Assembly: GCA_030550025.1 (NCBI GenBank)
Contig: JAUQQC010000008.1
Location: 1 to 49,200 of the forward strand
Source: Acidobacteriota bacterium
GTDB lineage: Bacteria > Acidobacteriota > Blastocatellia > HR10
Direction: 5' to 3'
DNA: 49,200 nt
Below, piece by piece: positions 990 through 11,259 of the stretch. A model generated the notes under the pieces. It was given only the letters and a program-made list of their open reading frames with translations, was not told where the DNA came from and did no database searches. Made by a program: the position numbers and the translations under genes. Each line of letters opens with the position of its first letter. Positions within the stretch are counted from its first letter, which is position 1.

Positions 990-2098
990 AACGCGCTCAC
1001 CTCTCGACGCACGGTCATCCGCTCGATGAAACGCTCATTCACGGCGAATCCGATCCCAGCCTCCGTTGGCACTCGAATCGTCCCCCGCGGCGTGACTTCC
1101 ACCTCCGGCTCGATGATGTCGTGCTCCCAATAGCGTCGGCTCGCCGAGACATCGCCCGGCAGCGAGAACCCCTCTAATGTCGAGAGCGCGATGTTGTGCG
1201 CTCGCCCAATGCCCGATTCTAACATCCCACCACACCAGAGGGGCACGCCCTGAGCGCAGCAGAGGGCGTGCAGGCGCCGCGCCTCGGTATACCCCCCAAC
1301 GCGCCCGAGCTTGACGTTGATGATCCGACATGCTCCAATGGCCAACGCCTTCCGCGCCTTCTCGGCGCTCGTGATCGCCTCATCCAAGCAGATAGGCGTG
1401 CGCAACCGCCGCTGCAGCTCGGCATGGTCTAACAGGTCATCATGAGCGAGCGGCTGCTCGAGCATCATCAGGTTGAAGTCATCGAGCGCGCGGAGCACTT
1501 GCGCGTCCTCGAGCGTATAAGCTGCGTTGGCATCCGCCATGAGGGGGATATCGGGAAAGACCGCGCGCACGGCCCCGACGATATCCCGCTCCAAACCCGG
1601 CTTGATCTTCACCTTGATCCGTCGATAGCCGGCCGCCAGCTCTCGTTCAACCGTCTTCACCAAGTCCGAGAGCGAGGGCTGAATGCCAATGGAGACGCCA
1701 CATTCGATCTCCGTGCGCGTGCCACCCAGGAGCTGCCATAGTGGCTTCCCCTCTCGACGCGCTTGCAAATCCCAACACGCGGCTTCCAGCGCGCCTTTGG
1801 CCATATTATGCCCGCGAACGGCGCGGAAGAACGCGGGGACTTCCTCGGCCGTCGCGAACTCGCGCCCCAGCAGCATCGGGACGAGAAAATCCCGCAACAC
1901 GAGCCACGCCCCGTCCACAAACTCGTGGTTGTAGAATGGCTCTTCAGGAGCCGTGCACTCGCCCCACCCTTCACCCCCCTCCGTATCGAAGACCCGAATG
2001 AGCAAGATGCGCCGCCAGTCAGTGCGCCCAAAGCTCGTCTCAAACGGAGCACGGAGCCGCATGCGGATTTCCCGAAGCTCGACGCGTTGAATCTTCAT
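986..2098 (-). CDS. Enolase-superfamily enzyme, o-succinylbenzoate synthase / N-acylamino-acid racemase-like
   Basis: A full-length 370-residue member of the muconate-lactonising subgroup of the enolase superfamily. The capping domain covers about 1-120 and the TIM barrel the rest. Visible catalytic residues are the KxK pair (K163, K165), metal ligands D189 (MADAN), E214 (LEQP) and D239 (CLDEA), and the second-face lysine K263 (NVKLG). The GGMLESGIGR stretch near 290 is typical of Bacillus-type MenC and N-succinylamino-acid racemases. Known members dehydrate SHCHC to o-succinylbenzoate for menaquinone, or racemise N-acyl amino acids. No other men gene is present, and the gene sits between a secreted repeat protein and a BNR protein in a polysaccharide-type operon, so the substrate is open. 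Confidence 0.82.
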   Translation of the reverse strand: MKIQRVELREIRMRLRAPFETSFGRTDWRRILLIRVFDTEGGEGWGECTAPEEPFYNHEFVDGAWLVLRDFLVPMLLGREFATAEEVPAFFRAVRGHNMAKGALEAACWDLQARREGKPLWQLLGGTRTEIECGVSIGIQPSLSDLVKTVERELAAGYRRIKVKIKPGLERDIVGAVRAVFPDIPLMADANAAYTLEDAQVLRALDDFNLMMLEQPLAHDDLLDHAELQRRLRTPICLDEAITSAEKARKALAIGACRIINVKLGRVGGYTEARRLHALCCAQGVPLWCGGMLESGIGRAHNIALSTLEGFSLPGDVSASRRYWEHDIIEPEVEVTPRGTIRVPTEAGIGFAVNERFIERMTVRREVSAL

Positions 2099-3303: not shown

Positions 3304-5888
3304 CCTTCGCTCCCTCTGTGTTCCTGTCGTCGAGTGCTCCGAATCGCCTCCACCCCTCGACTCCATAAGGATCTCCTCGATGCCCCTTCCTCGCGCGGAC
3401 GATAGTAGTACTGCTCGTAGCGGCTCTCCTCGGGCCGAATATCGTTCAACACTACACCCCAGATGGGCGCATTCGCTCGGGCAAGCCGCTCGACGGCCCG
3501 CCGCACGACCTTGCGGTCCGTCCGATTGAATCGGACGACGATGAGAACCCCATCCACAACCGGAGCGATCACCATAGGATCGCTCACCGCGGCGACCGGC
3601 GGAGAATCGAGGATGACCCACTCAAACTGCGCCTTGAGCCCTCGAACCAGCTCACCCATGACCTCCCGGTCGAGCAACAGGAACGGATTCTGCGGCGGAC
3701 GCCCAGCGGGAAGAACATGCAAATTCGGAACGTCCGTCTCACAGATGAGCGCCGGAAGTTCCGCCTCGCCCGCCAGATAAGCCACAACGCCTTCGGCCTC
3801 CGACGAGGATGATCCCCCCTGCGGCGACGCCTCCTGTATCCTTCTCTGCAACGCGCGCTCGACGGCCACGCGCAAGGCCTCAAGCTCGAACGGCTTGGTG
3901 AGATAATCCGCCGCACCTCGACGCACCGCCTCAATGGCCGTCTCCAACGATGCGTGCCCGGTGACCAGCACAACTTCCGTGCGCGGACTCAGCCCCTTGA
4001 TGCGCTCCAGCAGCTCCGTGCCGTTCATCCCAGGAAGCTTGATGTCCACGATCGCGAGAGCGACGTCGTTGTCGCGGAGCTTCGCCAGCGCGTCCTGCCC
4101 GTCTTCCGCCACGAGAATCGGGCCAAGCGTCCACCCTCCTCCAAGCCCATCGCGCTGAAAGACGGCGAGCCCACTGGCGATCAAATTTCGCACCGCCGCC
4201 TCATCATCCACGACGAGGACGGCTCCAAGTTGCGAACCTCGACGCTTGAGTCGAGGAAACCGACGATGTATATCCGGACGGCGCAGATCGAAATCCACCA
4301 GGATCGTACGCGCGCCCAACCGGGCCGCCGTTCGCGCCAGCTCGCACGCGATCGTCGTCTTCCCTTCTTCCATCACCGAACTGGTGATCAACACGGCGCG
4401 CGAGGAGAGCCCCCGATGAAAGAGCTTGAGGTTCGTCCACAATCCGTGAAAAGCTTCGCGCCGAGCGAATTCCTCTACGGTGAGGGAACGCGGGACTTCT
4501 CCGAGCACGGGCTGCCCGAGCAGCCGTTCGATCTCCTCGGCATCCCGAATCGTGTTGTTCACGAAATCCCTGGCGACGACGATTCCTACGCCGAGCAGAA
4601 GTCCCCCGAACAACCCGAGCAACAGAACGCGCGGACTTTGACGATTGAGCGGAACCCGAGGGGGCACGGCGCGATCCACAAGTGCGACATTATTGCGAAG
4701 GAGCTGTCCCCCTAACTCCACGCGGTTCAACGTCTGCTTCAGCTCGCGCGCGATCTCCGAAACAACGGCCTGTTGCAAGATTTGGTCGAGAAGCCGCGGA
4801 TCGGTGCTGGCGCTCTGCACGCGCTGCTGTTCGAGATCGCGCGCGCGTCGGGCCTCCGCCTCTTTTTGACGGGCCACCTCCAGCTCGTTTCGGAGCGCTT
4901 CCAAAGCGACGTCGGTCGCTCGCGCGATCTGCTCTTCCAACGCGCTCAGCTGCGCACGGAGCTGAACGACGCGCGGATTCCGCTCCAAGAATCCCTTCTG
5001 TGCCAATTCGCGGAGCTCCCGCTCCAGCATCGCCTTTCGCTCCAAGAGTCCACCGAGTTCGTTCGGGCCAGTGAGCAAGGCAGCGATGCGATGAGGAGCC
5101 TCCCGCGCCGCCACGGCCTGCTGATACCGAGCTTCGACCCGCTGTCGCTCTCGTTGCGCCTCCAGGAGAGTCTGCGTCGCCACCTCCAGGGCGCTTGTGT
5201 CCACTCTCCCTCGAGCCGCTTCGGTCGGGATGAGGCCGAGCTCGCGAGCGACCTGCTGCAATTGCTCGATCACTCGCGCTTGATTCGCCTCAGCCCGCTC
5301 AAGCAAAGCTCTCAAGGCTACGATCGTCTCCTGGAAGCTCTTCTTCCGCTCCTCGAGGTTGCTCGCGACATACACCTCGGCGAGCGTATTCGCCCATAAC
5401 GCCGCTTCCTCGGGCGACTCACGCGTCACCGCAATGGCGATGATCCGCGTGTTCTCCACCTGACGCGGCGCGACCGAAGCTTGAAGCTCCGCGGCCAACT
5501 CCTCCCGATTCCGCCCCTGATACGGCGGCAGACGCATGAGCGCCTCGGCCGCACGCAACGCCAGCGTGCTGCCGGAGATGATGCGCAGTTGCGTTTGGAA
5601 GTAGTACTCGTAGTCGAAGTAGCTGTTGTACTGCGGAGTCATCACCGCTTGCGTCGGATCAATCGGCGCTGAAGGAAGCTCGACCGAGACCGTCGCCTGC
5701 GCCTGATAGAGCGGTGTGCGCAAAAACCCCGATAAGAAGGCAAGACCGAGACAAAGAAGCGCCGAGGCCAGAACCGTCCACTTGCCTCGACGAAGGAGGT
5801 CAAGGTAATAGCGGTAATCCACACCCGCGTTGAGACTTTCTATTCCCGACACATGGGGAATTGTATCAATGCCTCCAGGTGCGGGCAA
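3300..5888 (-). CDS. Wzz/BY-kinase (polysaccharide co-polymerase and tyrosine autokinase) with an internal receiver domain
   Basis: 862 residues. An N-terminal Wzz domain (about 23-115) has TM1 at 37-57; a long periplasmic coiled coil (180-395) is followed by a PxxP stretch (VPPRVPLNRQSP) and TM2 at 420-440. The bacterial tyrosine kinase follows: Walker A (SSVMEEGKTT, 503-512), Walker A' (VDFDLRRPD, 531-539) and Walker B (VILDSPP, 758-764), with a C-terminal Tyr cluster (YEQYYY, 824-829). Such proteins control export and chain length of capsule or exopolysaccharide. Uniquely, a complete CheY-like receiver (about 555-685; DD 561-562, D615, T643, K665) lies between Walker A' and Walker B, joined by a GGSSSS linker. 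The start is a TTG with GGAGG only 2-3 bases before it; a GTG twelve codons in is an alternative. Confidence 0.9.
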   Translation of the reverse strand: MPAPGGIDTIPHVSGIESLNAGVDYRYYLDLLRRGKWTVLASALLCLGLAFLSGFLRTPLYQAQATVSVELPSAPIDPTQAVMTPQYNSYFDYEYYFQTQLRIISGSTLALRAAEALMRLPPYQGRNREELAAELQASVAPRQVENTRIIAIAVTRESPEEAALWANTLAEVYVASNLEERKKSFQETIVALRALLERAEANQARVIEQLQQVARELGLIPTEAARGRVDTSALEVATQTLLEAQRERQRVEARYQQAVAAREAPHRIAALLTGPNELGGLLERKAMLERELRELAQKGFLERNPRVVQLRAQLSALEEQIARATDVALEALRNELEVARQKEAEARRARDLEQQRVQSASTDPRLLDQILQQAVVSEIARELKQTLNRVELGGQLLRNNVALVDRAVPPRVPLNRQSPRVLLLGLFGGLLLGVGIVVARDFVNNTIRDAEEIERLLGQPVLGEVPRSLTVEEFARREAFHGLWTNLKLFHRGLSSRAVLITSSVMEEGKTTIACELARTAARLGARTILVDFDLRRPDIHRRFPRLKRRGSQLGAVLVVDDEAAVRNLIASGLAVFQRDGLGGGWTLGPILVAEDGQDALAKLRDNDVALAIVDIKLPGMNGTELLERIKGLSPRTEVVLVTGHASLETAIEAVRRGAADYLTKPFELEALRVAVERALQRRIQEASPQGGSSSSEAEGVVAYLAGEAELPALICETDVPNLHVLPAGRPPQNPFLLLDREVMGELVRGLKAQFEWVILDSPPVAAVSDPMVIAPVVDGVLIVVRFNRTDRKVVRRAVERLARANAPIWGVVLNDIRPEESRYEQYYYRPREEGASRRSLWSRGVEAIRSTRRQEHRGSEG
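3791..4238 (-). other. CheY/NtrC-type receiver domain inserted in the BY-kinase domain
   Basis: Encodes residues about 551-700 of the kinase. All receiver landmarks are present: the acidic pair in VLVVDDE, the phospho-acceptor aspartate in AIVDIKLPG, the conserved T in VLVTGHAS and the lysine in YLTKPFE. The flanking halves (RRPDIHRRFP before, VVAYLAGE after) join up as a normal BY-kinase once the insert is removed. The frame is unbroken on both sides. The right junction is a Gly/Ser linker. Confidence 0.9.
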
Positions 5889-10146: not shown

Positions 10147-10175
10147 ATTATATAATCTGCGTCTCATACTGTCAA
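10147..10175 (-). promoter_or_regulatory. Consensus sigma-70 promoter of groES-groEL
   Basis: On the minus strand, TTGACA (10175-10170), exactly 17 bases, TATAAT (10152-10147): a perfect consensus. The leader to the groES ATG is about 45 bases. No CIRCE element (TTAGCACTC-N9-GAGTGCTAA) is present, so HrcA control at the usual site is not indicated. Confidence 0.9.
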
Positions 10176-10255: not shown

Positions 10256-10283
10256 TTGACTTTTTAGAAAACTATGCTATACT
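10256..10283 (+). promoter_or_regulatory. Sigma-70 promoter of the micropeptide genes
   Basis: TTGACT (10256-10261), a 16-base spacer, TATACT (10278-10283). Start of transcription is expected near 10290, about 34 bases ahead of the first micropeptide ATG at 10324, leaving room for its GGAGG ribosome site. Confidence 0.75.
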
Positions 10284-10323
10284 AGTGGTGAAGTTTGAAA
10301 AATGAAACGAAGGAGGGAGGAGT

Positions 10324-10434
10324 ATGAGACGAGAGAAGGGACAGCTTGACCTGGCGACGCTACTTCTGGCGTTGCTCGCTGCTTTGCAACTTCTGGGAAG
10401 CGGCTCATGCCCAATCCCAGGGGTGACGCAATAA
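10324..10434 (+). CDS. Micropeptide 1 (36 residues, hydrophobic, one cysteine)
   Basis: ATG at 10324 follows a very strong ribosome site (AAGGAGGGAGG). Layout: a basic start (MRREK), the core GQLDLATLLLALLA, a hydrophobic stretch, then GSGSCP and a short tail. Micropeptide 2, 48 bases downstream, has the same core and GSGxCP ending. Ten of the 14 core codons differ only synonymously between the two, which is strong evidence that the peptide sequence is under selection. The single hydrophobic stretch suggests membrane insertion or export; the C-terminal cysteine does not fit a standard lipobox. I do not recognise the family. Confidence 0.8.
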   Translation: MRREKGQLDLATLLLALLAALQLLGSGSCPIPGVTQ

Positions 10435-10482
10435 CGAGGCCCAACGGGCTCGTGACATCTCACAGCAAAGGAGGAAGAGGCT

Positions 10483-10581
10483 ATGCGGACCCAATTCGGA
10501 CAACTCGACTTAGCAACGCTCCTTTTGGCTCTGCTGGCGTTGGCCGCGCTCTTGGGATCCGGACAATGTCCGACTCCCTAG
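10483..10581 (+). CDS. Micropeptide 2 (32 residues), paralogue of micropeptide 1
   Basis: ATG at 10483 with the near-perfect ribosome site AAAGGAGG eight bases upstream. The peptide starts MRTQF, has the same core GQLDLATLLLALLA, and ends GSGQCPTP. It lies in the same transcript as micropeptide 1; a small stem-loop (10435-10452, with a bulge) separates them. A stem-loop follows its stop at 10585-10601. The ECF sigma gene starts 117 bases downstream and may be read through. Function unknown. Confidence 0.8.
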   Translation: MRTQFGQLDLATLLLALLALAALLGSGQCPTP

Positions 10582-10584
10582 TGC

Positions 10585-10601
10585 GTCCCTCCTGTAGGGA
10601 C
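10585..10601 (+). terminator. Stem-loop after the micropeptide genes
   Basis: GTCCCT and AGGGAC pair perfectly around CCTGT, four bases after the stop of micropeptide 2. Only a short GTTT follows, so termination would be partial. Confidence 0.45.
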
Positions 10602-10650
10602 GTTTCGCGCCGACGTACACAGCGTCGAGCTTCTTCATAAACCTCCTCAC

Positions 10651-10670
10651 GGGACCCCATTCGGGGTCCC
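10651..10670 (+). terminator. 8-bp stem-loop upstream of the ECF sigma gene
   Basis: GGGACCCC and GGGGTCCC flank the 4-base loop ATTC, then CACTTTCCC. The stem is strong but the T run is poor. It may terminate or attenuate the micropeptide transcript, or protect mRNA ends, just before the sigma factor's ribosome site. Confidence 0.55.
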
Positions 10671-10698
10671 CACTTTCCCATCAGGAGGGCGAAGGGAT

Positions 10699-11259
10699 AT
10701 GGCGACAGCGGCAGCTCACGTCATTTCGGATTTGGAGTTAGCTCGGGCCTCAGCCCAAGGGAAGATGGAGGCGTTCGAGCGACTCTATCAGATGTATCAC
10801 CGGCGGGTGTATTCGTTGTGCCTGCGACTTGTCGGCAATGTCGCCGATGCGGAGGATTTGACGCAGGAGGTGTTCCTCCACCTCTACCGAAAGATCGGAA
10901 GCTTTCGGGGAGATGCGGCCTTCACGACGTGGTTGCATCGGCTGACGACGAACTTAGTCTTGATGCATCTTCGGCGGCGACGACCGAACTACGAGCTGAT
11001 GGGGGATACCGAGGTGAAGGCTCTGCTGGAGGCTCGTCGAATGGATGAGGGGATGTCTCGGATCGTAGACCGCATTGCGTTGGAGCGCGCGTTAATGGCC
11101 TTACCCATCGGTTATCGGACGATCCTCGTGCTGCATGATATTGAGGGCTATGGGCACGAGGAGATCGCTCGGATGCTCGGGGTCACCGTGGGGACGACGA
11201 AATCTCAGCTTCACAAGGCGCGGCTGCGACTCCGACGGCTTTTGAAGCGGCGGCGCTGA
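10699..11259 (+). CDS. ECF-family RNA polymerase sigma factor
   Basis: 186 residues with AGGAGGG ahead of the start. Sigma region 2 (about 22-90) has the typical DAEDLTQEVFLHLY followed by the FTTWLHRLTTN promoter-melting segment. Region 4 (about 130-182) has the ALPIGYRTILVLHDIEGYGHEEIA helix-turn-helix. There is no region 3, as expected for ECF factors, which direct polymerase to stress or envelope promoters. No anti-sigma gene lies beside it: upstream are the micropeptides and downstream is convergent pyrC, 13 bases away. Its controller must be elsewhere, or be unconventional. Confidence 0.93.
   Translation: MATAAAHVISDLELARASAQGKMEAFERLYQMYHRRVYSLCLRLVGNVADAEDLTQEVFLHLYRKIGSFRGDAAFTTWLHRLTTNLVLMHLRRRRPNYELMGDTEVKALLEARRMDEGMSRIVDRIALERALMALPIGYRTILVLHDIEGYGHEEIARMLGVTVGTTKSQLHKARLRLRRLLKRRR

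Follow-up and report, generated by a model that had tools for sequence, protein, structure and literature searches.

Two tandem homologous micropeptide genes under protein-level selection upstream of an ECF sigma factor gene in Acidobacteriota

Organization of the micropeptide locus

The DNA analyzed here, referred to as the window, is a stretch of 49,200 nucleotides from an Acidobacteriota bacterium (contig JAUQQC010000008.1). A preliminary description had proposed that it contains two tandem ORFs of 36 and 32 residues, each with a strong ribosome site, behind a good promoter, and all of these features were found. Micropeptide 1 (10324..10434, plus strand; 36 aa, MRREKGQLDLATLLLALLAALQLLGSGSCPIPGVTQ) and micropeptide 2 (10483..10581, plus strand; 32 aa, MRTQFGQLDLATLLLALLALAALLGSGQCPTP), both referred to as A-type, share the core GQLDLATLLLALLA and end in the tails GSGSCPIPGVTQ and GSGQCPTP, respectively, and a GGAGG-type ribosome site precedes each of them. 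Comparison of the codons confirmed that 10 of the 14 core positions differ between the two ORFs, all synonymously and with no residue changes. The promoter (10256..10283, plus strand) is near-consensus, TTGACT-N16-TATACT, with the TG of an extended -10 element and AT-rich DNA upstream, and is followed by a short 5' leader (10284..10323, plus strand) with the ribosome site GGAGGGAGGAG. The spacer between the genes (10435..10482, plus strand) combines a small GAGGCCCAACGGGCTC hairpin with the ribosome site AAAGGAGGAAGAG according to our reading of the alignment. Across nine genomes the promoter follows the pattern TTGAC-N16/17-TATAC, and the 5' leader is partly conserved and A-rich (AAAAATGAA). 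Since the hexamer columns TTGAC and TATAC are invariant in these genomes amid diverged upstream DNA, the micropeptide genes are probably transcribed strongly and constitutively. The groES-groEL genes, which are divergent from the micropeptides, have a sigma-70 promoter of their own that matches the consensus in 12 of 12 positions (TTGACA-N17-TATAAT; 10147-10175, minus strand).

Downstream of the array lies a gene for an ECF sigma factor (10699..11259, plus strand; 186 aa) with the domains Sigma70_r2 and Sigma70_r4_2, identified by domain search and neighborhood comparison. Its leader (10622..10702, plus strand) contains the conserved elements CUUCUUC and CCUCCU; in the consensus fold, a G+C hairpin is enclosed by the pairing of these elements with the ribosome site (AGGAGG, GAAGGG). 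These pairs are mostly invariant and thus provide little covariation support, and the single-strand fold of 10582-10712 yielded z = -3.9. In one genome of the order (G005) the hairpin sequence is replaced and the CUUCUUC element retained. Judged from these pairing stretches, the sigma leader could possibly act as an RNA thermometer or other translational switch.

Distribution, copy number and selection

Homologues were searched for in 58 relatives and subsequently, with a family profile (A1), in 162 genomes of the class. All ten genomes of the order contained micropeptide homologues with the same reading frame, a ribosome site and the layout GQ(I/L)D...G-x-C-P, so that the frame-conserved relatives on which the preliminary description had let its claim depend do exist. 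Copy number varied, with two copies in each of the five genomes of the genus, three in G005, five in G006 and a single one in G007, G008 and G009; multiple copies were always arranged in tandem and every copy had its ribosome site. Each of the five genus genomes has orthologues of both micropeptides, and pN/pS across these five species was 0.18 for micropeptide 1 and 0.11 for micropeptide 2. Among 16 aligned A-type sequences, G, D and Cys were invariant. The family profile recovers both micropeptides in their own genome with E values of 1e-15 to 1e-18; both are included in the profile, and the matches outside this genome therefore weigh more. The proposal of tandem homologues under selection at the protein level is upheld by the conserved frames, low pN/pS, ribosome sites, promoter and varying copy number in ten genomes, and we regard both ORFs as functional, presumably translated members of an apparently order-restricted micropeptide family.

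Within the phylum, no convincing family member was detected by profile search in the 152 remaining genomes of the class or in a sample of 396 genomes of the phylum, where three marginal matches all fell within long frames, and a second profile that included the copies of the second locus described below gave the same outcome outside the order. Marginal matches over the class and phylum searches were nearly all located inside long frames. One of them, NGQIDPLILLLAL in genome G343, forms part of a long membrane protein of another acidobacterial family (L058, about 1470-1540, minus strand) and was judged a chance likeness. It is very like the micropeptide core, and descent of the micropeptide from a long membrane protein of this type is conceivable even though we take the likeness as chance. 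A pattern scan of viral contigs returned a single match in a frame with neither start nor ribosome site, which was also attributed to chance. In agreement with the earlier statement that no known family is recognized, no entry in Pfam or NCBIfam reached its curated cut-off for the micropeptides, and a limited literature search found no paper describing the family.

A second micropeptide locus and the defining motif

One weak profile match led to a second tandem pair in the genus, located between two genes that we take, by recognition from sequence, to be rlmN and rsmD. In the window's own genome this B-type locus (L091:4610-4936, corresponding to G000:C26:86609-86935) encodes MRERGQIDTVTLVLIMAFVILFLFLFLLLGGGTTP and MRERGQIDPITLALILVLVFSLILLVLLLSRPPA. 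Its layout consists of MRERGQ(I/L/M)D followed by a hydrophobic helix of about 21 residues, without Cys, and it has a promoter of its own (TTGACA-N17-TATACT). The locus is present in five of five genus genomes, and no copy was found upstream of rsmD in G005-G009. In the window's genome and in G002 a terminator-like stem (ATCCCCTGTG...CACAGGGGAT) with a T run lies between the two genes. The second copy in G003 (L219, about 365 bases upstream of rsmD) reads MDTMTLILVMAFVFLFLLLFLLLGGGGGS; it has lost the RxxGQ part and kept the ribosome site and helix. When A-type and B-type copies are compared, what stays constant is G, Q and D in the N-terminal part and not the tail. Consequently, the single Cys that had been noted earlier is a hallmark of the window locus but not of the wider family; since the second-locus copies have none, the family-wide constant element is the N-terminal GQxD.

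Conservation of the gene neighborhood

The gene for the ECF sigma factor is the next gene downstream of the array in nine of the ten genomes, even though the flanks on both sides are rearranged; in G007 the peptide is kept and the sigma gene is absent beside it. In five of the ten genomes (G005-G009), the array is divergently flanked by a gene for a TPR regulator that also carries a Fis-type HTH. In the window's genus its place is taken by groES-groEL and the TPR gene is found elsewhere. Ancestrally, the genes were probably arranged as TPR regulator, peptides, sigma factor and pyrC, and lineages would differ in the side on which this arrangement was broken. A single origin of the linked sigma factors was not rejected in a tree test (p-AU 0.184), so the link between peptides and sigma factor can be plain inheritance. 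In other Acidobacteria, homologous sigma genes often have a zf-HC2 anti-sigma gene as a neighbor, which comes after the sigma gene at no fewer than three loci. The gene after the window's sigma gene is unrelated and convergent, and no anti-sigma gene adjoins.

Two further sets of small ORFs were observed near related regulators. In G001 and G004 (L251, L252), an ECF sigma paralogue is preceded at 144 bases by another small membrane ORF, which is conserved and distinct from the micropeptides (MEIRDLILLFFVFFQASLGLLLIGRFLMNVW..., 47 aa). In those genomes that were inspected, the gene directly 3' of the TPR+Fis-HTH gene encodes a small signal-peptide-like protein with repeated motifs such as GVTAGGRPYLPG...GVTAGGRPF, REGHTGRPGG and RESHAGRP (L129:5352-5740, plus strand; L130:5709-6074; L131:2572-2928; L032:7684-8001; L033, about 4712-5197; L034:4067-4432; L035:4146-4511; L036:4248-4598). 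Two of these proteins were tested against Pfam and gave no match. The TPR regulator and the repeat-bearing small secreted protein look like a candidate peptide-signaling pair in Acidobacteriota.

Predicted topology and proposed role

Residue analysis showed K and R in the N-terminal part, an uncharged hydrophobic helix and almost no charge after the motif. A single-sequence AlphaFold model of micropeptide 1 places a helix at residues 10-25 with moderate confidence (pLDDT 71.8), and the charge pattern together with the helix model predicts an N-in, C-out topology. The suggestion of a membrane or exported peptide thus stands as a prediction, on the strength of the positive N-terminus, the hydrophobic helix and the scant charge beyond it. 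In favor of a membrane location, the hydrophobic run of B-type copies, at 20-21 residues, has membrane-spanning length. On the other hand, the run in A-type copies, without Gly, covers only 9-15 residues and fits the h-region of a signal peptide equally well as a short membrane helix, and the G003 copy mentioned above is devoid of the RxxGQ part.

As the best explanation we tentatively favor constitutive single-span inner-membrane micropeptides with the N-terminus inside, whose cytosolic GQxD end would bind a partner, a reading that we consider a real possibility, if somewhat short of an even chance. From translation through membrane insertion, topology and partner binding to dimerization, the steps of this explanation are ones we infer. 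The near-consensus sigma-70 promoter would cause the micropeptides to be made constitutively and probably abundantly, and the several near-identical copies would ensure a high dose. The positively charged N-terminus with GQ(I/L)D would be kept in the cytoplasm while the hydrophobic helix enters the inner membrane, leaving the short tail (G-x-G-x-Cys-Pro at the window locus) on the periplasmic side. On this side, disulfide-linked dimers may form through the Cys end, or this end may bind a different group in the periplasm. The micropeptide would then most likely act as an accessory or regulatory small subunit that contacts its partner, through the GQxD end, on the cytosolic side of the membrane.

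Alternative explanations

The short hydrophobic run of the A-type copies makes cleavage to a signal a real alternative. The N-terminal 25 or so residues would then be a Sec signal cut at G-x-G, and Cys-Pro signals of 5-9 residues (SCPIPGVTQ, QCPTP, ACPIRF and alike) would be released, possibly to be read by the divergent TPR+HTH regulator of five genomes. The A-type layout of a positive end, 9-15 hydrophobic residues, G-x-G and x-Cys-Pro agrees with such a pro-peptide, as do the tails that differ among tandem copies and the presence of the TPR protein (475-483 aa) next to the array in G005-G009. In Firmicutes, tandem propeptides have been described beside TPR receptors (PMC11343458, PMC10075063), and the RRNPP systems are defined by a secreted propeptide of 10-100 aa and a directly adjacent receptor gene whose TPR region is C-terminal (PMC10075063). 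The micropeptides, at 32-37 aa, fall within this size range and their predicted layout is compatible with secretion; however, the TPR gene adjoins the array in G005-G009 only, is located on another contig (C3) in the window's genome, has a small secreted neighbor of its own and encodes the reverse domain order, with TPR at about 85-407 and the Fis HTH at 444-469. In addition, conservation falls on the GQxD end and not on the presumed mature peptide, and constancy of G, Q and D would not be expected from a mere Sec signal. With the second-locus copies, which have the longer helix and no Cys, also weighing against it, we judge export of a cleaved signal to be rather unlikely. Control of the adjacent ECF sigma factor, either by a membrane micropeptide retaining or freeing it in place of the usual anti-sigma protein or through an effect of peptide translation on the downstream gene, would account for the position of the array before the same kind of sigma gene despite rearranged flanks and for the missing anti-sigma gene; furthermore, no family peptide was found upstream of the sigma homologues in other Acidobacteria or of the sigma paralogues examined in the order. 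Against this, the link may be inherited gene order only, the peptide occurs without the sigma gene in G007, no sigma gene lies near the second peptide locus, and some Pyrinomonadaceae-type sigma factors are also without an adjacent anti-sigma gene, which leaves direct control of the sigma factor with a distinctly low probability.

Tandem membrane peptides controlled by antisense RNA, similar to the type I toxins Ldr, Ibs and Hok, resemble the micropeptides in size, hydrophobicity (a small hydrophobic membrane peptide is predicted here as well) and copy arrangement, and several type I toxins carry a single Cys (PMC8309996), as do the A-type copies. Nevertheless, the promoter scan revealed no sigma-70 promoter antisense to the micropeptide genes, the sole minus-strand match being the groES promoter (10175-10147). 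Neither the short leader nor the open, strong ribosome site nor the strong promoter suggests repression, and the genes occupy single fixed chromosomal places throughout the order, making a toxin very improbable. The basic end, the G followed by Q and the hydrophobic stretch of the micropeptides are reminiscent of class III signal peptides. Prepilin peptidase would in this case cut after the Gly of xGQxD and the helix would join a pilus-like assembly, but the class III pattern G|xxxxE was not found in any copy, with the acid at +3 and none at +5, there is no globular part and no Pfam pilin family matched, and we consider prepilin-like stubs scarcely credible. A lipoprotein lipobox ([LVI][ASTVI][GAS]C) was likewise rejected, as most copies have G, S or T at -3 and position -1 can be Q or T.

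Implications and comparison with known systems

The protein libraries searched contained no entry for this conserved tandem micropeptide family, and its GQ(I/L)D motif, two loci and conserved neighborhood give rise to testable predictions. It is unlikely, though worth consideration, that the array regulates an ECF sigma factor that lost its protein anti-sigma factor or is the peptide signal of the TPR+Fis regulator. To our knowledge, no such peptide-based gene control has been described in Acidobacteriota, and if either link were functional, control at the peptide level would be added to this phylum.

Tiny hydrophobic membrane peptides in tandem are a known kind, and it is the family, the motif and the setting that appear to be new. 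Type I toxins of the Fst/Ldr and Ibs kinds also comprise tandem copies of tiny hydrophobic peptides, but the micropeptide genes differ from them in their strong open ribosome sites, their fixed chromosomal place and the lack of a detected antisense promoter. With the RRNPP systems (Rap/Phr, PlcR/PapR, Rgg/SHP) the micropeptides share a small peptide with a basic end and a hydrophobic stretch, a tandem arrangement of propeptides and, in five genomes, an adjoining TPR regulator. They are distinguished by their occurrence outside the Firmicutes, an N-terminal TPR region with a C-terminal HTH, a regulator that is non-adjacent in the window's genus and conservation of the N-terminus of the peptide. 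The ECF sigma/zf-HC2 anti-sigma pairs of Acidobacteria include a homologous sigma factor, whereas that of the window has a micropeptide array upstream instead of an adjoining anti-sigma gene. Small single-span bacterial membrane proteins are alike in being 30-37 residues long, with a basic N-terminus, a single hydrophobic helix and a ribosome site of their own; compared with these, the micropeptides match no curated family and are set apart by a constant GQ(I/L)D and a tandem array restricted to one order.
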